Below the pieces are notes generated by a model. That model made no database searches. It had not been told where the DNA came from and worked only from the letters and a program-made list of their open reading frames with translations. From positions 49,437,473 to 49,501,472 of the forward strand of contig OY754964.1 in NCBI GenBank assembly GCA_963576475.1: a stretch of DNA of 64,000 nt, given 5' to 3'. The stretch is from Molanna angustata (Eukaryota > Arthropoda > Insecta > Trichoptera > Molannidae). Made by a program: the position numbers and the translations under genes. Position 1 is the stretch's first letter. Each line of letters begins with the position of its first letter. This document shows, piece after piece, positions 6,460 through 64,000 of this stretch.

Positions 6460-8282
6460 ATAAAAATATTCGGATCTTTTATATTGTGTGTAAAGAAAAA
6501 AAAGACAAATTAATTGTAAAATACAAAATAATTTTTTGTATAGGTATATTTAAGTAGGAATGCAAAATTTAATAGCCTGAATGCATGCTTTGTTTTTCGA
6601 AAATCTTTTTCAAAACATATGAATACATTTTTCGAAGAAACTACTGCTAATTCATATACTAAATTCAAATAAAACATATTTTTAATGTCATTGAGTTGTC
6701 GTGAATAATAGATTGAATTATTATTTCAATTTCTCAATTTCTTTGAGTGATTTTTTCTCACAATTTCGTTGTGACTTCAATTCATCATTGCACACGAGAT
6801 ATGACATAGCAATTATTTATTTGCACGATTTAAATTGCAAAATTCAGCACTGATGCTTGATCCAATAGACACACACATGATGTGTTTATAAATCGTCAGG
6901 ATAATGTTCGCGCATTTGTATCATTCGTATGACGCGCAAGTCTCAGTACGGTCTTCTGAGAGTAGGGCGCGTACATCGTGCACTTCATTATCCGATAGAT
7001 AAATCTGTCGTAGTATTTTTAAAAAACAAACTCTTAATAAACTGTCAAAAACAAACGATGCAAATAAAATAAAAAAGTGTTTTTTTTAAATATTTAAAAA
7101 AAGTGAAATTCTGAAAAAAAAAATATTTCAATCGTTGACTGCCGGAGAATTTAAATTTTACTATTCCGTTAATAATTAAGTGTTATCTTTTTCTCAAAAA
7201 ATCAAAAGTTTTTGTGACGTTTGCGTTTAGTTATTAAAATGATTGCCATTATCATTTGCAGGACGAAAACATCAAAAAAATGATGGATCGAAAATAATGG
7301 CGAACTTAAAGCAAAAATAAACATTAAAAACAAACGTTAAATCTGAATATTAATAAAAAACAAAAAAATTAATTTTGAACTCGTTTATAGACCGAATATA
7401 CTTAGACGTTTTTATTTGTCACGGTGACATAAATACTTGTACTAAATAGTGCAAAAAATAATTAAAACAACATTAAACATTAAATTTTAGATAATACTGA
7501 GATAATCAAATAAGATTTATAATAAATTAAGACTTCTTACACTGGTAAAATAATTGAAGATCTCATCATTTTTTGTTGTAAATTATATTAAAAAAAACAA
7601 TCAAAATAATTACTTTTATTAAAAAATTGCGCAATCCATAAAAGCTGATAATATATTTATTTTCTTCAGTTTGGATGCGAAATATATATTTTTAGCTTGA
7701 GGCTATCTTCAATGTCGTTAAGTTATTCAATTTGCAACAAATCGGTATTTTTAGTTGTCTCTAGTAACTCACAAAATCATACATTTTGGCAAAGATGGAA
7801 ATGACGTTGTGAAATTTCAAGATAAAATAATATTTTTTTAATAGTCAATAACAAATTGTTACGAAATTTGAATGCCGATAAAAAATGTAATTAAAGGATT
7901 GTGCTGTCGATAATGTTGACATTTCTGAACTTTAAAAAAAGTAATACCTACTTTTGACTGACTACTCATAAGAAAAGGTTAATATGAAATAATTAAGTTA
8001 TGTGTTGCAACGTATAAATAATTATTGACTAAAAAATAAACATACTTTAGTTTGAAGTATAATTTTACTACACCGATAAAAATCAGTGATATTTTGCGAA
8101 AGTCACAACTTGTACATAATTTTAAAACTGGTTTTCAATATCCGTTGAAAAATAACATCTTTGCATCGATTGTAGCATGTAAATGGTGGTTGACGTGGCT
8201 GTGGCCGTTGTGATTTCTGCCGAGCGCGATATGCTGTGATCTCTGACGGTCGGGAGATGATCAGACGACACTAGAAGTTAGG
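6460..8282 (+). other. Upstream region of the TGF-beta-like gene
   Basis: Very AT-rich sequence with no recognisable gene or repeat up to about 8160. From about 8170 to the ATG the base composition rises sharply in G+C, which is typical of a 5' leader and promoter-proximal region. I cannot place the transcription start, TATA or initiator element with any confidence. Confidence 0.35.
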
Positions 8283-8673
8283 ATGAGGCGTTGGGCGCTG
8301 CTAGCGGCGTGCCTGGCGGCGATAGTGCTGGGTGCTGGCGGGACATCATCGCTGAGCGGCTGTCCGCCAGCCGATTGGGCAGCGGACCCCAGAGACAATA
8401 GTTCGATCGGGGGCTGCGTCGCCTGCCGCCTGCGCGCCGAGGTGAAGAAGTATTCCCTGGACGCCATCAAAGAGCACGTTCTGGCCAAGTTGGGGTTCAC
8501 GCACGCCCCCAACACGACGGGAAGGAGGCTACCGAAGACGCCGGCTGATCTCCTGGCAAAGTACGAGAAGTCAAAGGAGATGGAGATGCAGGCGGACCAA
8601 CCAGAGAGGTACTCTTATTATGTGGACGAGGATGACTTCCACGCGAGGACCGAGAAGGTCTACGCTTTTCCCC
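8283..8673 (+). CDS. TGF-beta superfamily proprotein, first coding exon (myoglianin/GDF8/11-like; activin-type alternative)
   Basis: Encodes the N-terminus of a secreted TGF-beta family precursor. Seen: a basic-hydrophobic signal peptide at residues 1-22; N-glycosylation sequons at N39 and N77; a CxxC motif at C45-C48; an amphipathic segment at residues 58-71 containing AIKEHVLAKLGF; an APN-LPKTP stretch at 75-88; and an acidic DEDDFHARTE segment at 115-123. This order (CxxC, AIK helix, proline-rich latency lasso, DDxH-x-TE) is known from the propeptides of GDF8/GDF11 and insect myoglianin. Inhibin-beta/activin propeptides are more distantly similar. The frame stops at 8676-8678, but a donor (GTTAGT) starts at 8674, so I infer that the exon ends at 8673 after 130 codons plus one base (phase 1). 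The start ATG at 8283 is the only one that yields the signal peptide. The exon is much more GC-rich than its surroundings, as expected of a real exon. The furin site and cystine-knot exons were not found. Family is confident; the paralogue is less so. Confidence 0.85.
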
Positions 8674-8683
8674 GTTAGTATTT
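8674..8683 (+). promoter_or_regulatory. Splice donor of the TGF-beta-like exon
   Basis: The sequence GTTAGTATTT directly follows the conserved propeptide reading frame and precedes an in-frame TAG by two bases. It is a reasonable GTRAGT donor. Using it leaves a phase-1 junction. No matching downstream acceptor or exon was identified. Confidence 0.65.
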
Positions 8684-24983: not shown

Positions 24984-26010
24984 TAGTTGCATGTAACACA
25001 TGAGATCCAACTGTCGATAGCGATAGTATGTATAGTTGAAGAATAAGAATCAAACTATAAACCCATAAATCCAAATTATTGAAAATTTTAACACATGTTG
25101 GTATGTATGTCAAGATAGGACAGTATGGAGGTCAGTCCTGTTTTCCTACCCGGAATATGAAAACAGCATGATGGTTCTGTATGTATGTTTGGAGATTAAG
25201 TACCTATCAAACTATTAAAACTTCTTACATATTGTGTATAGGCGACTGACATACATACAAATTGTATGAAGCAATGTCGTCACTAAATTCAATTTTTATA
25301 AAAATTGTTAAAAAAAGTTTGAGATGTGCTAACATAATGTTTATATTTTTTATAGAAAATTAAATTATCTAGTTGGGGTGTTTCGGCTTTTTTCGATATT
25401 TTTGAAAAATTCGGAAATATAGGCAGTTAAACTCATAAATTTATCATAAAAAAAATACTTTTCTTAATAAAAAATGTTTGAGAAACCCTGGAATTTTTTT
25501 GAAAAAACTAATTTGAGATTTTGTATTTGTCTATGTTTGTACCAATTTTCAGCGTTCTAGCTTTTATGGTTTCTGAGATATATGGAAAAATAAATTAAAA
25601 ATTCAAAAGTTGATAACCCCTGACTGAAACAAAAATTCAAAATTCAGAGTATAAAAGTTTTGTAGACCTATAACTGTTTATATATTCTGAAATTTTGGGC
25701 TCTGTAAATTGAGCGGATCAAAAGTTATAAGGGGGGGACGGACACACACACACACACAGACATACACACAGACACACACACACACAGACACACACACACA
25801 GACACACGAAATGTTCTACTCCGAATTCTGAGTAAATCCGTGTATGGAACATATATGCTGCGAAGCCTCTAAGTTGGTGTTTTTTGACTTCAAAGTTGGA
25901 AAAGCCGTGAAAAAAGTAGACCTCTCCATACAATTCTCGCGTATTCTGGCTTGATACATTGTCGATATGTTAAGAGAACAAAGTTCTCCTGAACAAATCG
26001 ACAGTTGGAT
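24984..26010 (+). mobile_element. (CA)n-containing TIR element, copy A
   Basis: Full-length copy of about 1.03 kb. It starts CTAGTTGCATGTAACACATG and ends ATCGACAGTTGGAT. The segment ATCCAACTGTCGAT near the left end is the reverse complement of the right end, giving 14-bp subterminal/terminal inverted repeats. Internal landmarks are an RTE-tail-like segment (25100-25185), an AT-rich middle and a (CA)n/(CACAGA)n tract (25740-25807). No real coding frame. It abuts a SINE on its left. Confidence 0.85.
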
Positions 26011-26043
26011 AAACATTAGTTTATAGTAATTTGTACTAATAAA

Positions 26044-27080
26044 CTAGTTGCATGTAACACATGAGATCCAACTGTCGATAGCGATAGTATGTATAGTTGA
26101 AGAATATGTACCAAACTATAAACCCATAAATAAAAATTATTGAATATTTTCAGATATTTTGTTTTCTATACAACATATATTATGTAGGTATGTATGTCAA
26201 GATAGGATAGTTTGGAGGAAGTTCCTTTTTTCCTACCCAGAATATGCAAATAGCATGATGGTATGTATGTATGTTTGGAGATGAAGTATCAAACTATTAA
26301 GTCTTCTTACATATTGTGTATAGGCGACTGCCATACAAAATGTATGAAGCGATGTCGTCACTAAATTCAATTTTTAAAAAAATTGTTAAAAAAAAATTGA
26401 GATCTTCTACAACAATGTTAATATTTTTTATAGAAAATTAAATTATCTAGTTGGGGTATTTCGGCTTTTTTTGATAATTGTAAAAGTTTTGGAAATATAG
26501 GCAGTTAAACTCATAAATTTATCATAAAAAAAATATTTTTCTTAATAAAAAATGTTTGAGAAACACCGGAATTTTTTTGAAAAAACTAATTTGAGATTTT
26601 GTATTTGTCTATGTTTGTACCAATTTTCAGCGTTCTAGCGTTTATGGTTTCTGAGATATATGGAAAAATAAAATAAAAATTCAAAAGTTGATAACCCCTG
26701 ACTGAAACAAAAATTCAAAATTCCGAGTATAAAAGTTTTGTAGGCCTGTAACTGTTTATATATTCTGAAATTTTAGGCTCTGTAAATTGAGCGGATCAAA
26801 AGTTATAAGGGGGGGACGGACACACAGACACACACACAGACACACACACACACAGACACACACACACACAGACACACGAAATGTTCTACTCCGAATTCTG
26901 AGTAAATCCGTGTATGGAACATATATGCTGCGAAGCCTCTAAGTTGGTGTTTTTTGACTTCAAAGTTGGAAAAGCCGTGAAAAAAGTAGACCTCTCCATA
27001 CAATTCTCGCGTATTCTGGCTTGATACATTGTCGATATGTTAAGAGAACAAAGTTCTCCTGAACAAATCGACAGTTGGAT
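26044..27080 (+). mobile_element. (CA)n-containing TIR element, copy B
   Basis: Near-identical to copy A and in the same orientation. Separated from copy A by 33 bases and from copy C by 6. The (CA)n tract lies at 26818-26880. Confidence 0.85.
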
Positions 27081-27086
27081 AATTAA

Positions 27087-28117
27087 CTAGTTGCATGTAA
27101 CACATGAGATCCAACTGTCGATAGCGATAGTATGTATAGTTGAAGAATATGTACCAAACTATAAACCCATAGATACAAATTATTGAATATTTTCAGATAT
27201 TTTGTTTTCTATACAACATATGTAGGTATGTATGTCAAGATAGGATAGTATGGAAGAAGATCCTTTTTCCTACCCAGAATATGCAAATTGCATGATGGTA
27301 TGTATGTATGTTTGGAGATGAAGTAACAAACTATTAAGTCTTCTTACATATTGTGTATAGGCGACTGCCATACAAAATGTATGAAGCGATGTCGTCACTA
27401 AATTCAATTTTTAAAAAAATTGTTAAAAAAAAATTGAGATCTTCTACTACAATGTTAATATTTTTTATAGAAAATTAAATTATCTAGTTGGGGTGTTTCG
27501 GCTTTTTTCGATAATTGTAAAAGTTTTGGAAATATAGGCAGTTAAACTCATAAATTTATCATAAAAAAAATATTTTTCTTAATAAAAAATGTTTGAGAAA
27601 CCCTGGAATTTTTTTGAAAAAATTAATTTGAGATTTTGTATTTGTCTATGTTTGTACCAATTTTCAGCGTTCTACCGTTTATGGTTTCTGAGATATATGG
27701 AAAAATAAAATAAAAATTCAAAAGTTGATAACCCCTGACTGAAACAAAAATTCAAAATTCCGAGTATAAAAGTTTTGTAGGCCTGTAATTGTTTATATAT
27801 TCTGAAATTTTAGGCTCTGTAAATTGAGCGGATCAAAAGTTATAAGGGGGGGACGGACACACAGACACACACACACACAGACACACAGACACACACACAG
27901 ACACACAGACACACGAAATGTTCTACTCCGAATTCTGAGTAAATCCGTGTATGGAACATATATGCTGCGAAGCCTCTAAGTTGGTGTTTTTTGACTTCAA
28001 AGTTGGAAAATCCATGAAAAAAGTAGACCTCTCCATACAATTCTCGCGTATTCTGGCTTGATACATTGTCGATATGTTAAGAGAACAAAGTTCTCCTGAA
28101 CAAATCGACAGTTGGAT
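27087..28117 (+). mobile_element. (CA)n-containing TIR element, copy C
   Basis: Near-identical to copies A and B and in the same orientation. Small differences include TGGAAAATCCATG for TGGAAAAGCCGTG near 28008. The (CA)n tract lies at 27855-27915. Confidence 0.85.
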
Positions 28118-28934
28118 AAAAAAAATCAATTGCCTAGGAACGTAGAATCGAGAAATTTAAAAAGAGCATTCTAAGAAACTGTTGCAATATAATTGAGTAA
28201 AAGAATTTTCTTTTAAAGGGTGCAACATTAAGATCTATTATTTATTTATATTTTCCTCGTTTTTAACACATATTTGTTTCGGAAGAGAACTATAAAATAG
28301 ACAAAAAATGAATTGGCTGCCTTAAAACAGGAATTATTCATAGGTAGGCAAACAAAGGTAAATAGTGAAACACAACCTATATATCTACCACAAAAATGGG
28401 TGAATTCAGATATTATATACTTATTTAGAGATATTATTTTTTTTTGTATAAGTTCAAGATATTTCAATATTGTCCCAATGTAATCTGTTTTGTAAAAGGA
28501 AATAAAACAATTATTTTTATTAATTATAAATTTACTATCATAAATTGTTGAATTTTTTCCAATATGTTTTTTTAACATAACTTTTTTGTACAGTGAATTG
28601 TTTTGAGTCCATCTCAAACCACTTGTTTTCAATACTCAGTTGGATGGGTGATTGAGCGGTAGTGCGCTTGTTTAGCATACACCCTGGATCGAATCATTCG
28701 TACACCCAATACGAAGATTAAGCAATTACCTACTTCTCATGTAAAATTATTCAACCTTCTAGCAGGAATTGATTAAAAAACACTACTCAAACTGACAGGA
28801 TTTAAACACTAAACAACAATAAGAATAATGGGCATTGGCGTAGTGGAGTGTTGTATCTAGAAATCACTGCAAAAGAAAAAACTTACTAAAAAAATTGTAT
28901 TTTATCTTTTCTTATATATTTTTTTAAGAGGTTA
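28118..28934. other. AT-rich sequence between element C and the foldback element
   Basis: One minus frame of 128 codons (28246-28632) is AT-driven and shows no known motif. A degraded tRNA-like head is at 28641. Nothing else. Confidence 0.3.
28641..28715 (+). mobile_element. Degraded tRNA-like SINE head, possibly family 3
   Basis: GGATGGGTGATTGAGCGGTA resembles the family 3 head; the B-box position reads GGATCGAATCATTCG. No body is recognisable. Confidence 0.4.
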
Positions 28935-31798: not shown

Positions 31799-32564
31799 CT
31801 AGTTGCATGTAACACATGAGATCCAACTGTCGACAGCGATAGTATGTATAGTTGAAGAATAAGTACCAAACCCATAAATACAAATTATTTATTATTTTAT
31901 GATATTTATTATTTTTTCTATACAACACATGTACCTAGGTAGTCAAGATAGGATAGTATGGTGGTCAGTCTTTTTTTCCTACCCGGAATATGAAAACAGC
32001 ATGATGGTATATGTATATTGTATGTTTAGAGATGAAGTATCAAACTATTAAGTCTTCTTTGATATTGTGTATAGGTGACTACCATACAAATTGTATGAAG
32101 CGATGTCGTCACTAAATTCAATTTTTATAAAAATTGTTAAAAAAAATTTGAGATGTACTGCTACAATGTTAATATTTTTTATATAAAATTAAATTATCTA
32201 GTTGGGGTGTTTCGGCTTTTTTCGATATTTAAAAAAAAAATGGAAATATAGGCAGTTAAACTCATAAATTTATCATAAAAAAATACTTTTCTTAATAAAA
32301 AATGTTTGAGAAACTCTGGAATTTTTTTGAAAAAAACTGATTTGAGATTTTGTATTTGTCTATGTTTATACCAATTTTCAGCGTTCTAGCTTTTATGGTT
32401 TCTGAGATATAGGGAAAAATATAATAAAAATTCAAAAGTTGATAACCCCTGACTGAAACAAAAATTCAAAATTCCGAGTATAAAAGTGTTGTAGGCCTGT
32501 AACTGTTTATATATTCTGAAATTTTAGGCTCTGTGAATTGAGCGGATCAAAAGTTATAAGGGGG

Positions 32565-32632
<68 letters not shown>

Positions 32633-32849
32633 ACACACAGACACACGAAATGTTCTACTCCGAATTCTGAGTAAATCCGTGTATGGAACATATATGCTGC
32701 GAATCCTCTAAGTTGGTGTTCTTTGACTTCAAAGTTGGAAAAGCCGTGAAAAAAGTAGACCTCTCCATACAATTCTCGCGTATTCTGGCTTGATACATTG
32801 TCGATATGTTAAGAGAACAAAGTTCTCCTGAACAAATCGACAGTTGGAT
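31799..32849 (+). mobile_element. (CA)n-containing TIR element, copy D
   Basis: Fourth full copy, about 3.7 kb from copy C, with a longer (CA)n tract (32564-32646). Its left end abuts a LINE tail and its right end abuts the 88-bp minisatellite without spacer. Confidence 0.85.
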
Positions 32850-33553
32850 AATGAGATGCAGTAGACCGTATTTATTTTACCGGTGAATATGTCCCAAGTA
32901 GATATGTCATCTAAAGAAAACAATAGTTTTTCATAATAATGAGATGCAGTAGACCGTATTTATTTTACCGGTGAATATGTCCCAAGTAGATATGTCATCT
33001 AAAGAAAACAATAGTTTTTCATAATAATGAGATGCAGTAGACCGTATTTATTTTACCGGTGAATATGTCCCAAGTAGATATGTCATCTAAAGAAAACAAT
33101 AGTTTTTCATAATAATGAGATGCAGTAGACCGTATTTATTTTACCGGTGAATATATCCCAAGTAGATATGTCATCTAAAGAAAACAATAGTTTTTCATAA
33201 TAATGAGATGCAGTAGACCGTATTTATTTTACCGGTGAATATGTCCCAAGTAGATATGTCATCTAAAGAAAACAATAGTTTTTCATAATAATGAGATGCA
33301 GTAGACCGTATTTATTTTACCGGTGAATATGTCCCAAGTAGATATGTCATCTAAAGAAAACAATAGTTTTTCATAATAATGAGATGCAGTAGACCGTATT
33401 TATTTTACCGGTGAATATATCCCAAGTAGATATGTCATCTAAAGAAAACAATAGTTTTTCATAATAATGAGATGCAGTAGACCGTATTTTTTTTACCGGT
33501 GAATATGTCCCAAGTAGATACCTATGTCATCTAAAGAAAACAATAGTTTTTCA
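32850..33553. repeat. 88-bp minisatellite, eight copies
   Basis: Units start at about 32851, 32939, 33027, 33115, 33203, 33291, 33379 and 33467, an exact 88-bp period. The core contains GCAGTAGACCGTATTTATTT and ACCGGTGAATATGTCCCAAG. Copies are almost identical (scattered G/A differences such as ATATGTCC/ATATATCC), so the array is recent or homogenised. The last copy has a small insertion (ACCTATG) and loses the end. The period is not a multiple of three and stops occur in every frame, so it is non-coding. Confidence 0.95.
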
Positions 33554-55545: not shown

Positions 55546-57542
55546 GCGAAATATGTGGTCCTAAAGTTTTGGTTTACAGCGATACCATAATTAAGCGGTC
55601 GTAATATGACGTCAAATGTAAGTAGATATCTATTCAATAATGATTTAAAGAAAAAAATGCTCCTATGACAGCAGCAACAAAGCGTCCGATAAAATATGGC
55701 GGTGAACAGTTCGAAAAGATTTTATTTTACGAAGTTGTGGACATAGCGATATGTATATCTCTTTATTAACAACGACATTAGAAAGGGAAAATTTGATTGA
55801 ATTTACCCGATTAATTTGAGAAAACGCACTTACTTTTAAGTTGTAGTCGCTGTAAGTTGTATAAGGAGCATTAATAAAATAAACATTATAGAGAAATCCT
55901 TACTCGATAAAACGAAAAACCCAATCAAGAAATTCAAAATATAATCGATAAGTATCAAAAAGACAATATGATTAAACTTTAACGCTGTCTCAATAGAAAA
56001 TAGGTAAGTATTATGTAAATTTGAGAAATCTATTTCACTGAGCTATCACTTAACCACTACGACGTAAAATTATGGGCTCAAACTAGACGTCACTGTCCAC
56101 CGTTGCGTGGTAACACAAGATCTTTGGATTGACCTCGATGAGATTCTTATACGACACCATATCTGTATTACAAAATCCACGTTATCAATGAGACTTTGAA
56201 AAGGTTCACGCACGAACAGAATACGAAAAGTTATATTTTTAATTTTATTTGATTCGGGTATTAAAAAAAACCGAAATAATGCAGGAGAATGAATGTTAAA
56301 TGGATGATAATGATTTTAAAATATCATTTCCTGCAATGAATTAGGAAATCTCACGACAAGAAAAATGAATAGGTAATTTTTCCTACTGGTAGTGGGTTCA
56401 TACGGATCCGTAAATCAATTACATTTTTTCAATAATAGACACAAACAGAATTACACCAATTCTAAAAAAAATGGCCATGGCAGACTTTCGAAAATCACAG
56501 AACACGTTCACCCAAGTACTGGGTAGATTGAGGCAGATTATGTTGATAAAAATACGAAAGGTCTGATTTAAGTTAACGATCATTCTACGCATTTCGAGCT
56601 TTGCATTACATGGCAGTGTGGTACATAGTAGGTTATCTTAATATCTATGTATATACTTAGGTATTGTTTTAAATTCAATATATTATAGATTTTTTAAGAA
56701 TATATTTACTATACATAAAAATGACTTAATTATTTATGAATATTTAATTAGACTAGTGAAATCCGTTGATACATATTCGAAACCCATGGGAAAGCCATTG
56801 AATTACTTTACAATCAATACTTATTAGGTATAGTACGTAAGAGGTACATGTTATATTTGTATTTTTATTTATTTACTTTTAATAATTTTATGCATGTAGG
56901 TACTTTGTGCTGTCCTTTGTAAAATTAAATAAAATAAAAATATTCGAAATATCAAAATTTGAGGCATTTTTCGTCATCATCATCGTGAGAGTGAATTTTC
57001 AATAACTCAATATTTTTTTTAATAACATTCATTGTTGTATTGAATTATGTTCTTCGGGATCAAATATTCGGTATGACAATCAATACCTGTTAACAAAAGT
57101 ACCTATATTTATCTTTTCACTTTATTTTATGATAATACCAATAGAAAAATGCAATCGTCATTATATCAATCACTACAATGATATTTTTTAAATAAAACAG
57201 ATTTTAAAATCGAATATTACCACGCGAATATGAAAAATATCCTTCAAACAACAAAAATGATAATTAGTGGTGCACTTTCTCCAATTTGCAGCAAAAAATA
57301 AACTCTTAAGATGTCGTGTATTTCTAAACATCTTCACTATTACATATTATGTACCAAACAAAACGAAACAATTTCACGGTAAAACAAATTAATGTCCCCG
57401 TGTGTAAATTGAGGTTTAAGAAGATGTACAGCAGTATGATCATATAAGTAACTCAACGAGAGCAGTCGATCAAATTAAGACATTCATTGTTCGCGAAGGG
57501 TCGGAATTAGGGTTAGATACTGCCGATAGTTGTGAAGCGCTA
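55546..57542. other. 3' flank of the Torso-ligand gene
   Basis: AT-rich, about 2 kb beyond the stop codon on the minus strand. Presumably includes the 3' UTR nearest 57542. No other gene or repeat recognised. Confidence 0.35.
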
Positions 57543-57674
57543 TCAAGCTGCACACTCGCAGGCAACAGTGATGGGTACTCCCTGGAAGATATAGGCGGCT
57601 CTCAATGCATCTGGAACCAGAGGAGCGTGCCTGTCAAACTTATCGCTGGGCTCTTTCTGCTTCAACACCCATAA
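57543..57674 (-). CDS. PTTH/Trunk-family Torso ligand, terminal coding exon
   Basis: Acceptor TTATTCCAG precedes codon TTA at 57674. The exon encodes 43 residues and stops with TGA at 57545-57543. It begins LWVLKQKE, which continues the strand after the CKKKVYM of the previous exon. It contains VPDALRAAYIFQGVPITV and closes with CEC two residues before the end. The L/I-x-V-L-K-x-x-E strand and the hydrophobic V-x-V-A-C-x-C terminus match the last third of PTTH/Trunk proteins. The protein ends directly after the final CxC with only two alanines, without the short basic tail usual in PTTH; I take this as mild support for Trunk. No polyadenylation signal can be singled out in the AT-rich 3' flank; an AATAAA on this strand near 57120 is one candidate. 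Confidence 0.82.
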   Translation of the reverse strand, partial: LWVLKQKEPSDKFDRHAPLVPDALRAAYIFQGVPITVACECAA

Positions 57675-57699
57675 CTGGAATAATGTCAATAAAAAAAAC

Positions 57700-58250
57700 T
57701 TTATTAATACAAGATTCAAAATAATATCTAACATAGTTACTATACAAAATTTGCAATAACTTGATCGATTCCCCTGATATACTCAAAACTGTATCACTCC
57801 ATGTACCGAATAGACATACCCGCTCACAAAATTTATTCCACATACCAGTATGCCACACTAATTACAGATACTTTTCACCCATGTTTAGAATTCAGCGAGA
57901 TTTTAATACACATTTCAAAAATACAGATATTTTTCATGACACTTTACAACATTACCAAAAACAGATAAAGATGTTCTTAAACTCTAATACACAATCCAAC
58001 CATCCCCTCCTCATTCACTAAAGATCCCTCCTCCTCATCATGAAACATATGTACTCGTTTACTGTATTAGTGCATATCTTTTTTTTATCCATCTTTTTAA
58101 ATTTAATTTTCTTTTTTCTTTTATCTTGTATTTTCTTATGAATTTTTCAACTGTGTAATAAATTACTGTATAATCAATAATTAAAATTGAAGAAAGCACA
58201 TTTGGCTCAACTTTTAAACAATAAATGTAATGTAAAATAAATAAATTATA
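57700..58250 (+). pseudogene. Non-LTR retrotransposon 3' fragment in the last intron
   Basis: A + frame from about 57761 to 58021 contains VPNRHTRSQNLFHIP and TNYRYFSPMFRIQRDFN. This resembles the C-terminal domain of Jockey/CR1-type ORF2 (R-x-R-x-x-x-L-x-x-P, then a YG/F-x-x-S motif and a conserved arginine) and is followed by a stop and AT-rich 3' UTR. It is 5'-truncated and lies only about 90 bp from the terminal exon's acceptor. Confidence 0.55.
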
Positions 58251-58302
58251 TCTGTAGCTTTCTTAGAGAAAATAAATAAATAAATAAATAGTTCAACAAT
58301 AC

Positions 58303-58472
58303 AAAATGAGGTTCAACACCCATTCTGAATTTAGTGCCTTTGTAAGTGATACAAGACTGGTGTGTGATCACGCATGCATCTTTTTTTCCATTTGAAGTTA
58401 TGCACACTCGCTGTCTTGTCGCTGGTTTCTCCAAATTGAGGTACCTATATGCCATGATGCTATGAATGAAAA
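58303..58472 (+). mobile_element. Short interspersed repeat G, copy 3
   Basis: CACCCATTCTGAATTTAGTG, AAGACTGGTGTGTGATCACG, ATATGCCATGATGCTATGAA. More diverged than 51275-51440. In the last intron of the Torso-ligand gene. Confidence 0.65.
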
Positions 58473-58659
58473 CACAGTTAATTTGAGGTCGCTTTTGGCA
58501 CTCCAGAGTCCATTTGATTACATACTTAAAATATCTATAAACAAAACTATCTATGTTTATACAATCGCGGGAGGGATTCTTTAGACAAATTAAAATAAGA
58601 ACAGGATATAATAGCCACGAATAAAAAAAATGTCAAAATTATCTACCTATGTTCAGATT

Positions 58660-59018
58660 TTTCGTTCATTTTTTTTATTTTAATTTTTTATTTATTTTAT
58701 ATATATAGAAATAAAATATAACAATTTACAATACTTATAATAGCATACACAAAAATATTTTATTCATATTACCCCCCAAAAAGAGCTTATACTCGTGGTT
58801 TGGGGGGGATTCCTATATAAACCAAAAATTAATCTTCATTATCATAATTCATCAAAAACCAATAATATACACAATATCAAAAGAAAAAAAAGAACAGAAA
58901 AAAACATGCAATTAAAATACATGAAATATTAAATAATTCCATTAAGAAGTTATAAAATTAAAAGAGACTTAACCGTTATTTACCGTTCAGCTCATTAAAC
59001 CATTTAACACCTTGGTAT
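58660..59018 (-). pseudogene. Older non-LTR retrotransposon, ORF end and 3' UTR (downstream half of split copy)
   Basis: Continuation of the 60387-60810 element beyond the insertion. A short coding end (GVKWFNELNGK, then stop) is followed by an AT-rich 3' UTR containing a C-rich run near 58775-58810. It ends in an A-rich tail on the minus strand near 58665-58700. Confidence 0.6.
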
Positions 59019-59032
59019 GTATAATGGAGCTG
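59019..59032. repeat. 14-bp target-site duplication, left copy
   Basis: GTATAATGGAGCTG, identical to 60373-60386. It borders the rearranged LINE insertion and lies within the reading frame of the older minus-strand LINE that was hit. Confidence 0.85.
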
Positions 59033-59484
59033 CTTTGTCTTTCATATGGGCAATGGCACGTTTAAGCTCGTCAGTATCAAATGGGCTGCTTAAAATACTA
59101 ATTTCATTTTCTGTATCTCTTTGGATTTTGATCTTTGTCTGGCTCGGTGTTTTTCCGTTTAGGAGTAGGTGGTGCGCTACTTGGTCTGGTGTTACTTGGT
59201 TCAGACCTAGGGTTGGTGCTTGTGGATCATTATTAAGGTTTTTGATCAGTTTCCATGCACGCCTACTGTTTTGCTTCATGTCCAAGTAGGATACTAATTT
59301 ACACCATCTATTTGTTCTTGATTGAGAGACAGCTTGCATTACCCTTTCCCCGGCTTGGATGGTCTCCTCGGAGAATGGATCTTCTGTGTATAGTTTCTGG
59401 TACCTCTCCAGTATTGACTTAGAGTCCTCGTTAATACCCTGAAGCCAAATCCAGCGAAGACTCAAGTCTGTGCCTTCCACCTCA
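59033..59484 (-). pseudogene. Non-LTR retrotransposon fragment, inverted 5' segment (linker before reverse transcriptase)
   Basis: Open minus-strand frame of about 150 residues. It contains NSRRAWKLIKNLNND near its middle and DELKRAIAHMKDKAA near its end, typical of the linker between endonuclease and reverse transcriptase in Jockey-like LINE ORF2 proteins. The frame is uninterrupted, so the copy is young. It abuts, in opposite orientation, the C-terminal part of a LINE ORF2 beginning near 59485, and its outer end coincides with the 14-bp duplication at 59019-59032. It is best explained as the inverted 5' part of a single insertion. Confidence 0.8.
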
Positions 59485-60372
59485 GAAATAGGGATGCGGG
59501 AAGAAAGCTAAGAGTATGGTGGCAGGGTCAGGAACTGGAACACAGGGACGCACCAAAATATTTGGGTGTTCGACTGGACCGATCCTTGACTTTTAGGAGG
59601 CATTGTGAAGAGGTCGAGAAGAAGGTATGTGCCAGAAACAACATCATAAGAAAGCTTACCAGCACAAAGTGGGGAGCCCAACCCCATGTCCTAAGAACCT
59701 CGGCACTGGCACTGTGTTTCTCCGCTGCTGAATATGCTGCACCAGTATGGTACAACTCATCACACACAAAAAGGGTAGATGTGGCAATTAATGAAACAGC
59801 CAGATTAATATCTGGTTGCCTAAAACCGACCCCCACTAAAGAACTCTATCCAATAGTGGGTATTGCCCCCCCTACGATCAGACGGCGTGTTGCAGCAGAA
59901 GTCGAACGGAGCAAGCAGAAAACTGACCCTAGACATCCAATGTATGGCTCACAGCCGCATCAGTGCAGACTCAAGTCCAGAAGAAGCTTCCTGGAGATGA
60001 CCGCCCCTATAGTTGGCCTCCCCGAGGCCCGAAGGCTGTCACTGTGGCGTGATAGTGTCAAACGCACGCAGCTACCACCCGCGGAGGACGTGTCAGTGGG
60101 ACACAACCTGCCTTATCCAACATGGAGAGCGCTCAATAGGCTCAGAAGGGGTGTCTCCTGCTGTTACAGTGACCTCAAGAAATGGGGTTACAGAGAGGAA
60201 GACATCTGCGAGTGTGGCGCCAGACAGGACAACGTGCACCTACTGTCATGTCCCATGATAGGAGCGACATGCACGCACCGAGACACAGTGATAGCAAACA
60301 CTAGTGGAATCCGAGTGGCTGAATATTGGGGGCTACGAATATGATGGTGTTCCGGACACGGAAAGTAAGTAA
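59485..60372 (+). pseudogene. Non-LTR retrotransposon ORF2 C-terminal segment and short 3' end
   Basis: Open + frame of at least 260 residues ending with TGA at 60344. It starts with PKYLGVRLDRSLTF, the segment just after the reverse-transcriptase core in Jockey-like LINEs. It continues through a YAAPVWYNSSH motif and ends in a cysteine-containing region (CECGARQDNVHLLSC). The catalytic palm is missing between this piece and the inverted piece next to it. The 3' UTR is only about 28 bases and ends in AAGTAAGTAA. No stops or frameshifts are seen. The 3' end is bordered by the second copy of the 14-bp target duplication. Confidence 0.85.
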
Positions 60373-60386
60373 GTATAATGGAGCTG
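60373..60386. repeat. 14-bp target-site duplication, right copy
   Basis: GTATAATGGAGCTG, identical to 59019-59032. Together they define an insertion of 1340 bp (59033-60372). Confidence 0.85.
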
Positions 60387-60810
60387 GCCCGTAGTCGTTT
60401 TTAATAATGGTATATCAATTTTGGTCTCTCTTATTGGATGTTTTCTTGAATTAGAGGTTGGATATAAATTACTTGTGAAATGAAAAGTGAATTTATGTTG
60501 AGAACATAAAAATCCTGATAAAGTTGGTTTGTTGGATAATCAAAAGGTTTCTTAAGGATGATTTTAATAATGGTGTTTTGGATTATTTGTAAAGGCTTTA
60601 AATTAGTTTTGAAAGCTGCACCCCATCCTATAATCCCATATTGTAATATAGGTTGTGCAAATGCAAAATAAATCTGTTTTAATGTTTTTATTGGAAACAT
60701 TCGTCGTAATTTAATGAATACATAATATAATTTTCTTATTCTAATGACTATTAAATTTATTTGTTCTTTCCATTTAATGTTGTTGTCGATCATGATACCA
60801 AGATATTTTA
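60387..60810 (-). pseudogene. Older non-LTR retrotransposon, C-terminal ORF2 part (upstream half of split copy)
   Basis: Minus-strand frame of about 120 residues containing NNIKWKEQINLI, IRKLYYVFIKLRRMF, and QPILQYGIIGWG. This is the post-palm region of a LINE reverse transcriptase in which the thumb follows an L-x-Y-G-x-x-x-W motif. The frame continues across the inserted LINE into 58660-59018, so the two pieces are one element divided by the 1340-bp insertion. Truncated at its 5' end near 60800. Confidence 0.75.
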
Positions 60811-60837
60811 ACTTTTTGTGCGGTTTAATTCAGTGCA

Positions 60838-60915
60838 TTTATTCGGTGCATTTATTTATTTAATCAATTTATGTACATACAACAAAGATGGGTTTATTGA
60901 AATAAAGCAATCTCC
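60838..60915 (-). mobile_element. LINE 3' end fragment
   Basis: Minus strand. TTTATTTATTTAAT, then TTTATGTACATACAAC and GGGTTTATTGAAATAAAGCA. A decayed copy of the same 3' end. Confidence 0.5.
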
Positions 60916-61096
60916 TCTTATACATAATTTCCATGGCCAGAGATTTATCTTTAGAATAAATGGAAACGTGTCGATTAATTTGGTTTTAATATCAACAATA
61001 AGTTTGAAGAATTGAATATTTTCTGGATTATAGAAAAAAATATCTGGATAATACTTATAGAAAAAAATATTTGGATAATATAGAAAAAATACTTAC

Positions 61097-61210
61097 CATA
61101 TAGACTTTTTTCTTACAGGAGTATGGCTCCAACCAACAAGAACCAGGTGTGCACTCCAGAGTGGAATAATATCGAGGGAAGCTCGAGTGTCCCAAGTCCA
61201 GTACTTTCGT
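61097..61210 (-). CDS. PTTH/Trunk-family Torso ligand, exon with central three cysteines
   Basis: A 38-codon, phase-0 exon bounded by a strong acceptor (TCTATTTCAG) and a consensus donor (GTAAGT). It encodes VLDLGHSSFPRYYSTLEC followed by TPGSCWLEPYSCKKKVYM. The DLG....PRY block before the third cysteine and the C-K-x-x-x-Y block before the next hydrophobic strand are hallmarks of PTTH/Trunk knots. The spacing between the third and fourth cysteines is short (four residues). The exon is too short to stand out as an open frame and was found by looking for splice-bounded coding sequence between its neighbours. The intron to the previous exon is about 1.35 kb and contains a degraded repeat; that to the next exon is about 3.4 kb and contains nested LINEs. 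Confidence 0.82.
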
Positions 61211-61529
61211 CTGAAATAGAGACAAAGTTATAAACTAAATAGGTACCTAATTATGATATCAATTTGATCAAATAAATTTTATCGAATATTGATGAGTAGG
61301 TACAAAAAGACCATAAGTTAGTCGTGGCATTAGTCTTGCACATCCGGACCTAGCAATGATCTTAGATATGGTGCAATTAAAAAAATGTATTCATATTTCT
61401 GTAAAAGAGCAATTAAAAATAAAAAGATCGAATATATACACTTATTTACTAAAAATAAAATAAATTTAAATTATATTTTACAATACCACTTAATTTTTTC
61501 ATTTTAAACTTGAGAAATTAGTTACGAGT

Positions 61530-62330
61530 ACTGAAATGGAGACCATGGGATATGAAAAGGGGAATATCTGTCCTCAGAAAAGATGGGCCTATGATATTGG
61601 CGCGCGTCGCTGCAAATGGATGGGTGCAAAAAGTCTAAAGAAGCGACGAGTGCAAATATTTAGAAGAGACCATCGTACTACATACAAAGACCAACACTAC
61701 ATGGGGCTAGGTTGTGGCCATAGAGGCCTAGCCAGTAAAGTTGGAGGTGGCCGCAGCCCCATCCTAGGATTCTGGGCAAAAGGTCGGTGCCCCTTCAATT
61801 CTTACATATGGAAGATCAGGGTAGACGTCTTAATATCTCGCTCAGCGGTGACTCTCCACACGCGGCGAGGATCATTAACTGAGCGTGGAAATCGAAGAAC
61901 TGAAAGTACTGTTCACGTGGTGTGGTACCTGTGAATCGCCAATACCAGTACTAAGGGGTGAAGGAGCCCCCCGGCAGGATTGGTGGGCACGACCCACTCG
62001 GCGGTAGCCCGCCATGATGATGAGACAGGTGTAGCGGACGCTGCGCCTGGTATGGAAATCGAAAAACTGAAAGTAGGTACTACAAGCTTGGCGAAAGCTC
62101 CCTATGATATTTTAGTGTTACCGTGACACTGTTGGGAGGGTAACCCTCGCCATGATTGAAGGGCCTTCACGTTGATGGTTAGACTCTTAGTGGTAGTGGT
62201 ATGAAATATGCATGATAGTAGTTTCTGGTTTTGTCTGACGAGCAGCCGCTTCGGGGGAAAACAGAACTACTTAGTTCTATAACGATTCCTATGGAGTGGG
62301 GTAGGAGACTGCGTTATTCCTTACTACATA
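61530..62330 (+). repeat. Interspersed repeat E, copy 2, with a coding-like upstream part
   Basis: 61850-62330 matches repeat E (GTGGTAGTGGTATGAAATAT, ACGAGCAGCCGCTTCGGGGG, GGGGTAGGAGACTGCG). The upstream 61536-61934 frame of 132 residues (KRWAYDIGARRCKWMG near its start) weakly resembles the RRW-x-DD-x-x-x-x-x-x-RW tail of LINE ORF2 proteins. The whole is probably one LINE 3' end. It lies in the intron between the first two visible Torso-ligand exons. Confidence 0.5.
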
Positions 62331-62560
62331 CAGCATTGGAGAGATAGCTGAAGGAAAAAAAGATTAATCTAGATCTTGAAATGATACGTGCTGATTTGCT
62401 CATCACTATAGTCACGGATGTTGCAAGGAAAACACGGTCATTAATTTATTTTATAGTTTAATTTTTGTCTAATACTGATTTGTATAATATAAATAAAATA
62501 TAAATTAAAACTTTCGTGCATAATTTTTAGTTGTGTATACATAATTTTAATAATTGTTAC

Positions 62561-62677
62561 CGTATGTTCACAAGCACAGTTGGCACGCTTCGAATTAAGA
62601 AAATCTGATCTTGATAATATCTGTGTTCCTGGTTCCGCTGGATTATATACGGGATAGTTGCTTCCTAGTCCAGTCAT
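62561..62677 (-). CDS. PTTH/Trunk-family Torso ligand, internal exon carrying the first CxC
   Basis: First visible exon of a minus-strand secreted cystine-knot ligand gene. It is bounded by an acceptor (...TATTGCAG) just above 62677 and a donor (GTAACA) just below 62561, and encodes 39 residues in phase 0. Its C-terminal part ends ...NSKRANCACEHT: a possible dibasic KR processing point, then the C-x-C that opens the mature domain in prothoracicotropic hormone and Trunk. The methionine at the exon start is probably not the initiator, because no signal peptide follows; the signal-peptide exon must lie at higher coordinates. Together with 61097-61210 and 57543-57674 it gives 120 residues with seven cysteines spaced CxC, C, C, C, CxC, the known PTTH arrangement. 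Torso receptor ligands of this family control ecdysone timing (PTTH) and embryonic terminal patterning (Trunk). The loops differ enough from lepidopteran PTTH as I know it that Trunk is my preferred paralogue. Confidence 0.82.
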
Positions 62678-63084
62678 CTGCAATATTATACAGTTTGTTT
62701 TTATATATATAATAACATGTAGCTACTTATTATTATATATCAAATTGCACATACAGTTTACATTAGGACATATTATCAAATTGCACATACAACAAATGGG
62801 AATCACTAAAATCTCCAGTACATAGTTAATGTGCCTACATTTTTTTATTCTAAATGCATTTTTATGAAGTAAATATATATTTCTAATAAATAATTTATAT
62901 TGCAAATATTGTAAATAAAAAATATGCAATTAAAACAATTTTCCAGAGCGTTTTGACAGAAGAAATGAACGGATGTAAGAAAACTACTCAGCTTTAAATT
63001 AATGATAAAAACAACTTTACAAAACATTACAAATAATCAAGGCAATACTTGAAAAATACTAATAAGTCATCTCAATATGTGAAA

Positions 63085-63990
63085 TAGTGTTACATGTATG
63101 CCCAGAATGCTTAGGCAATATAAAAAAGAAGAATGCAATACTATTAATTGATGATAAAGTGGTGATTGCTGAATGCGCGGATGAGTTACAGTATTTAGTG
63201 AATAATGTGTATGAAGGATGCCTGCAGAATGGACTGAGAATGAATATGAGTAAATCTAAGATATTGGTATTCGAAAAAACTGAAAGTATAACTCCGTGTA
63301 GAATAAAAATAGAGAAGGAATGGCTAGAACAAGTAGAGGAATATTTATACTTGGGGAGTATGTTTGAACGGAATGGAAGACCTGATAAAGACATTGAAAG
63401 AAGAGTTATGGCACGTAATAGAATAAATGGAGCTCTCAGACCAGTAATGTCCGATCCAAGCATCTCAAAGGAAGCCAAAATTCCCGTACATAATGCAATT
63501 GTAGTGCCCACTTTGATGTATGCCAGTGAAACATGGACGTGGCAAAAGACGCATGAAAGTAGAATAAATGCTGTGGAAATGAGATCACTAAGAAGAGTAT
63601 GTAAAAGAACGATATATGATAGAATAAAAAATGAGGACATAAGGAGGAAATGCAAGATGAAGAAGAGTTTTATAAGTAAAATGAAAATGAATTCCTTGAG
63701 GTGGTTTGGTCATATTGAAAGAATGAATGATGAACGGCTGACCAAAAAATATACATGGGTGTAAGAGATGGAGTGAATAGCAGGGACCGCCCCAGAAAGG
63801 GATGGCAAGACCATGTGAATGATGTTTTGAAAGAAGGAAATATAAGAAGCTTGAATAATCGACGAGCATGTATGAATGGATGCATGGATGTAAAGGAAGC
63901 TAAGAATGTGTGCAAAAATAGAGGAGTATGGCGCTCGATTCTCTCTGTTTACCCCGTAAGGCATATGGCGTGATGGTATGTATGTATGCA
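63085..63990 (+). pseudogene. RTE-like LINE, C-terminal half of reverse transcriptase with one frameshift
   Basis: The frame from 63087 contains a degenerate LIDDKVVIAE version of the Y/F-ADD catalytic box, then LRMNMSKSKILVFE, EYLYLGSMFERNG, LMYASETWTW, SLRRVCKRTIYDRIKNEDI and SLRWFGHIERMNDERLTKK. One base appears lost near 63748; the frame resumes at 63755 with RPRKGWQDHVNDVLKEG and ends RHMA at 63973. The 3' end is GGCGTGATGG followed by (TATG)n. This is the most complete member of a family with at least seven shorter fragments in the window. The clade name RTE-like rests on the C-terminal GHIERM-type motif and is tentative. Confidence 0.85.
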
Positions 63991-64000
63991 ATACTCTTAA

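Follow-up and report, generated by a model that had tools for sequence, protein, structure and literature searches.

Does the minus strand of the 64,000-nt stretch of DNA analysed here (the window, on which all coordinates are based) carry a gene for a Torso ligand, and if so, is that ligand PTTH or Trunk? The question arises from an initial annotation that joined three minus-strand exons between 57543 and 62677 into a PTTH/Trunk-like gene. We put the probability at roughly 0.93 that these exons form the 3′ portion of an insect gene for a Torso ligand of the PTTH/Trunk family and encode its C-terminal cystine-knot part, a reading that draws on a match in the PDB, on shuffle controls and on intron positions shared with a known ptth gene. 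Placement in this family is well supported by the sequence comparisons; it is made at the level of the family, and neither subtype is assigned.

A putative three-exon gene on the minus strand

Exons of 117, 114 and 132 nt join on the minus strand to give 120 residues followed by a stop, and the GT-AG borders, the phase-0 junctions and the exact coordinates originally proposed were all reproduced. Exon 1 (62561..62677, minus strand) contains the putative end of the pro-region, with a Lys-Arg pair at residues 30-31, and the first CxC motif (C34, C36). It is separated by intron 1 (61211..62560, minus strand; 1350 bp, phase 0) from exon 2 (61097..61210, minus strand), which reads TKVLDLG..PRYY..C..C..C..KKKVYM and supplies cysteines 3-5. 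Intron 2 (57675..61096, minus strand; 3422 bp, phase 0) is followed by the last coding exon, exon 3 (57543..57674, minus strand), which reads LWVLKQK..ITVACECAA plus the stop and supplies cysteines 6-7. The two introns begin with GTAACA and GTAAGT and end with TTTCAG and TTCCAG, respectively. TTGCAG precedes exon 1, within which a second in-frame AG lies 14 codons 5′ of the CxC. Open reading frames (ORFs) within 59007-60829, in intron 2, resemble retroelement pieces by eye; Pfam gave no support for this.

On recounting, the seven cysteines were found at positions 34, 36, 59, 64, 71, 116 and 118 of the 120-residue peptide, in the PTTH order that had been claimed for them. The six knot cysteines are in order, with a CxC at both ends. 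The DLG..PRY block described at the outset is present; the V-x-V-A-C-x-C ending described with it is not, as the C-terminus actually reads P-I-T-V-A-C-E-C. Two residues remain beyond it, in agreement with the observation that the protein stops just after the last CxC. The peptide contains no N-glycosylation sequon.

Similarity to Bombyx PTTH

When the peptide was compared with 177,635 distinct PDB sequences, Bombyx PTTH (PDB 5aoq chain L) was the only match at E ≤ 10, with E = 1.8e-10 over residues 33-119; the portion before residue 33 had no match in this search. Similarity is thus significant across the C-terminal knot domain, and the best match did not fall in an unrelated cystine-knot family, the outcome named beforehand as counting against the annotation. 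The Bombyx PTTH fragment, used as a query in its turn, returned itself and one unrelated weak match (E = 0.22). In pairwise alignment, the peptide and PTTH scored 134; of 2000 shuffles in which the cysteines were held fixed, the best reached 53.

The two proteins share the seven cysteines in order, the DLG..S.PR block, the element PY.CK..Y and the P..VAC.C ending. They differ in overall sequence, with 32% identity (27/84 aligned residues), and in their loops, as the initial annotation had noted: the loop between cysteines 3 and 4 has 4 residues here vs 7 in PTTH, and that between cysteines 4 and 5 has 6 vs 5. In further contrast to Bombyx PTTH, the peptide lacks a sequon, ends two residues past its last cysteine, and has its Lys-Arg pair two residues before the first.

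Intron positions shared with Bombyx-type ptth

When the PTTH fragment served as the query in a protein-cluster search, a 67-residue ORF (P0001) on a 2395-base contig was retrieved. Its 40-residue stretch KEIEDLG..ESLYS matches the Bombyx crystal sequence at 39/40 places, and the sole difference, Asn for Gln, falls at the Asn41 site described in the literature (PMC8157905). Q stands immediately before the PTTH stretch and V-S-L immediately after it, as in-frame read-through of CAG and GTAAGT would give. Because these flanking residues can be read as phase-0 splice sites, we infer that P0001 represents an exon of a Bombyx-type ptth together with the adjoining intron borders.

Both borders coincide with those of the window gene, falling 3 residues past the CxC and 6 residues past the fifth cysteine in each, and both introns would also agree in phase 0, the phase of the PTTH introns being read from protein letters alone. 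Bombyx ptth is described as having five exons, with the mature peptide spread across exons 2 to 5 (PMC8157905), whereas planthopper ptth is described as having one coding exon (PMC11121662). Such variation makes the shared intron positions informative. Taken together, the PDB match, the shuffle controls and these shared positions argue that the exons are part of a Torso-ligand gene, in line with the family originally named.

Search for the exons without the gene model

The exons may have been fitted by eye in the initial annotation, so the window was also queried without that model. PTTH was divided into pieces according to the exon borders seen in P0001, and each piece was aligned with the six reading frames of the window and with those of 60 dinucleotide-shuffled versions of it. 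The exon 2 piece reached a best window score of 64, compared with a mean of 36.9 and a maximum of 44 in the 60 shuffles. For the exon 3 piece the best window score was 50, and the 60 shuffles had a mean of 36.4, a standard deviation of 3.3 and a maximum of 47. In both cases the best six-frame score equalled that of the modelled exon and lay in the same frame. A tblastn search of the window with Bombyx PTTH placed exon 2 at the top (E = 2e-5); the matches listed did not include exon 3.

Exon 1 rests on its place and was approached through its pattern: three codons and then GT come after a CxC at 8 open sites in the window. At three of these, at least 20 codons upstream are open and an AG is in frame, and just one of the three, exon 1 itself, also has a GTRA donor; these filters (open codons, AG, GTRA) were picked after exon 1 was known.

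Several observations weigh against a Torso-ligand gene at this locus. The exon 3 piece exceeds the shuffles by a small margin only (50 vs 47), and the exon 1 piece is not significant alone: it scored 21, whereas the best score in the window was 34 and the shuffle maximum 37. At seven residues, the latter piece is too short to stand by itself. No Pfam family was found for the peptide at E ≤ 10, and no relative emerged among protein clusters, whether the query was the whole 120-residue peptide or exons 2+3, in a collection that yielded just one PTTH piece (P0001) even for Bombyx PTTH as the query. In the alignment with Bombyx PTTH, 6/7 cysteines align, cysteine 4 being out of register by one residue owing to the unequal loops on either side of it. 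The G+C content of exons 1-3 (0.42, 0.46 and 0.52) is little above that of the introns (0.39 and 0.36), so composition lends little support to the gene model; for the window as a whole the value is 0.32, and 14%, 8% and 3% of equal-length window stretches reach the values of exons 1, 2 and 3, respectively. Finally, the signal-peptide exon anticipated above 62677 did not materialize, as no convincing candidate was found in the 1323 bases upstream (62678-64000).

PTTH or Trunk

Within the family, the sequence features tilt the assignment toward Trunk, which we consider probable with modest confidence. The shortness of the loop that joins cysteines 3 and 4 points in this direction and, if the species is a moth, so do the 32% identity to Bombyx PTTH, the short C-terminus and the lack of a sequon. 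Against Trunk, C34 aligns with the first cysteine of the PTTH CTC, the chain-pairing one, which is the pattern of a PTTH. In Bombyx PTTH this is the inter-chain cysteine. According to a review, the cysteines that lie outside the knot differ between Trunk and PTTH (PMC6303783), and dipteran PTTHs are described as keeping precisely these seven cysteines (PMC8157905). Drosophila and Tribolium Trunk would share their family and receptor with the window gene by the literature, Trunk having been compared by description only.

The alternative is that this gene is the ordinary ptth of its species, produced in brain neurosecretory cells and driving ecdysone synthesis, and that it is divergent because the species lies far from Bombyx, as a basal moth or a member of another order. 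We regard this as doubtful, but as a serious contender. In a macro-moth or butterfly it would be at odds with the much greater likeness of lepidopteran PTTHs to one another than 32%. The seven cysteines in PTTH order and the introns at both Bombyx-type ptth positions are what an ordinary ptth would have, and an identity of 32% to Bombyx PTTH resembles the 31% given for planthopper PTTH vs Bombyx (PMC11121662). Less easily reconciled with it are the C-terminus, where only two residues follow the last CxC, and the absence of sequons from all 120 residues, vs a possible Asn41 site in Bombyx PTTH (PMC8157905).

A more specific form of the Trunk assignment is that a lepidopteran Trunk exists here alongside ptth. 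A moth is a plausible source, to judge from the likeness of the retroelements. The ptth introns and seven PTTH-like cysteines would then place it near the state before the two ligands parted. This proposal is tentative, and we hold it at somewhat short of even odds. No lepidopteran Trunk sequence was found in the paper listings and passages covered, most subscription papers being outside their scope. That the gene is a paralogue other than Trunk or PTTH appears highly improbable.

It is also very unlikely that the exons come from a Torso-ligand gene copy that has decayed or is not expressed. The lack of a convincing first exon within the window and the retroelement-like ORFs in introns would suit such a copy, but the three exons are open, the splice borders are intact and all seven cysteines are present, features of which a decaying copy should have lost some.

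Another cystine-knot family (Noggin, Spatzle, NGF or TGF-beta) or a chance assembly can be set aside as having a negligible probability: CxC-type spacing is general among cystine-knot proteins and exon 1 is not significant by itself, but no other PDB chain reaches E ≤ 10, and the shuffle controls and shared intron positions speak against both. For Noggin and Noggin-like proteins in particular, no Noggin chain was among the PDB matches at E ≤ 10. Noggin is considered the broader family that gave rise to Trunk and PTTH, and it is stated that no nog or nog-like gene has been identified in Holometabola (PMC9071555, the latter statement citing Skelly 2019).

The 5′ end and processing of the predicted product

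The ATG of exon 1 lies directly 3′ of an AG, and a stop is located 15 codons upstream of that ATG. Exon 1 is thus probably not the first coding exon, and another exon, encoding a signal peptide, is to be expected on its 5′ side. The 1323 bases upstream contain 13 ATG-led frames of at least 20 codons, some of them hydrophobic near the start (among them 63640 and 63027). Candidate signal exons in this region, such as 63640, which is antisense to a retroelement ORF, and 63027, were rejected for their poor phase-0 donors. The retroelement ORF, on the other strand at 63066-63761, fills much of the upstream sequence; its match to RVT_1 (E = 1.5e-4) was below the cut-off. This ORF had no relative among viral contigs, and among genome contigs it matched a single locus, at 32% identity, in a Prochlorococcus record. 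Retroelement-like ORFs upstream of exon 1 together span 63066-63970. The 5′ exons probably lie beyond the window.

A Torso ligand encoded here would be made with a signal peptide and a pro-region, and the precursor would be cut, at or before the Lys-Arg adjoining the first cysteine, by furin as is known in the family. The Lys-Arg pair lies two residues before that cysteine. Drosophila Trunk is described as being cleaved at K75-R76, with a dibasic cut of the pro-region required (PMC7252263, PMC4640135). In Drosophila PTTH, on the other hand, the two dibasic sites tested are given as dispensable for activity (PMC7252263), which makes cleavage at Lys-Arg a weak step in this scheme. The mature part would be expected to fold as a cystine knot with bonds 2-5, 3-6 and 4-7, which are the disulphide pairings of Bombyx PTTH, and to dimerise perhaps through cysteine 1. 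By analogy with known members of the family, the ligand would then activate the receptor tyrosine kinase Torso and, through it, the Ras/ERK pathway.

Other features of the window

The AATAAA nearest to the 3′ side of the stop, about 0.4 kb away (57121..57126, minus strand), is a possible polyadenylation signal by motif only.

On the plus strand, 8247-8675 is probably the exon with which the coding sequence of a TGF-beta ligand begins; it has an ATG, a hydrophobic start and a GDF8/myostatin-like propeptide. It matches PDB 6umx (E = 2.9e-4) and Pfam TGFb_propeptide (E = 0.007, below the cut-off), and may perhaps belong to myoglianin. Within the window, a motif scan for the mature TGF-beta domain gave scattered matches, none of them convincing, and the lowest E that tblastn gave with the GDF8 mature domain was 2.4.

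Four copies of a unit of ~0.9 kb, 70-100% alike by segment, occupy about 25149-28119 and 31978-32851. Their starts are spaced by about 1078, 1037 and 4714 bases, and the unit adjoins stretches translating as CVCVCV, which point to a CA/TG microsatellite. A tandem array with an 88-base period, its later copies near-identical, extends over at least 32760-33499, the searched region having ended at 33500. Two tRNA-Ser(GCT)-like sequences on the minus strand (337-410 and 1732-1804) lie in apparent copies of one interspersed element and are perhaps tRNA-derived short interspersed elements. An Rfam search gave three matches, all to tRNA.

Implications for Torso signalling

Torso ligands time metamorphosis (PTTH) and pattern the ends of the embryo (Trunk). 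Their short, divergent exons are easily overlooked, and no Pfam-A model caught the present gene. If it is the ptth of its species, it is an ordinary hormone gene. In Tribolium, Trunk is reported also to promote larval growth (PMC10703416), so an embryonic role is not to be assumed for a Trunk identified here. A study of oogenesis in Pararge aegeria describes no clear torso or trunk transcripts (PMC3654919), and a confirmed lepidopteran Trunk would make its role testable. If the gene is indeed a lepidopteran Trunk, the use of Trunk and Torso in moth embryos, or a function in larval growth like that in Tribolium, would become directly testable.

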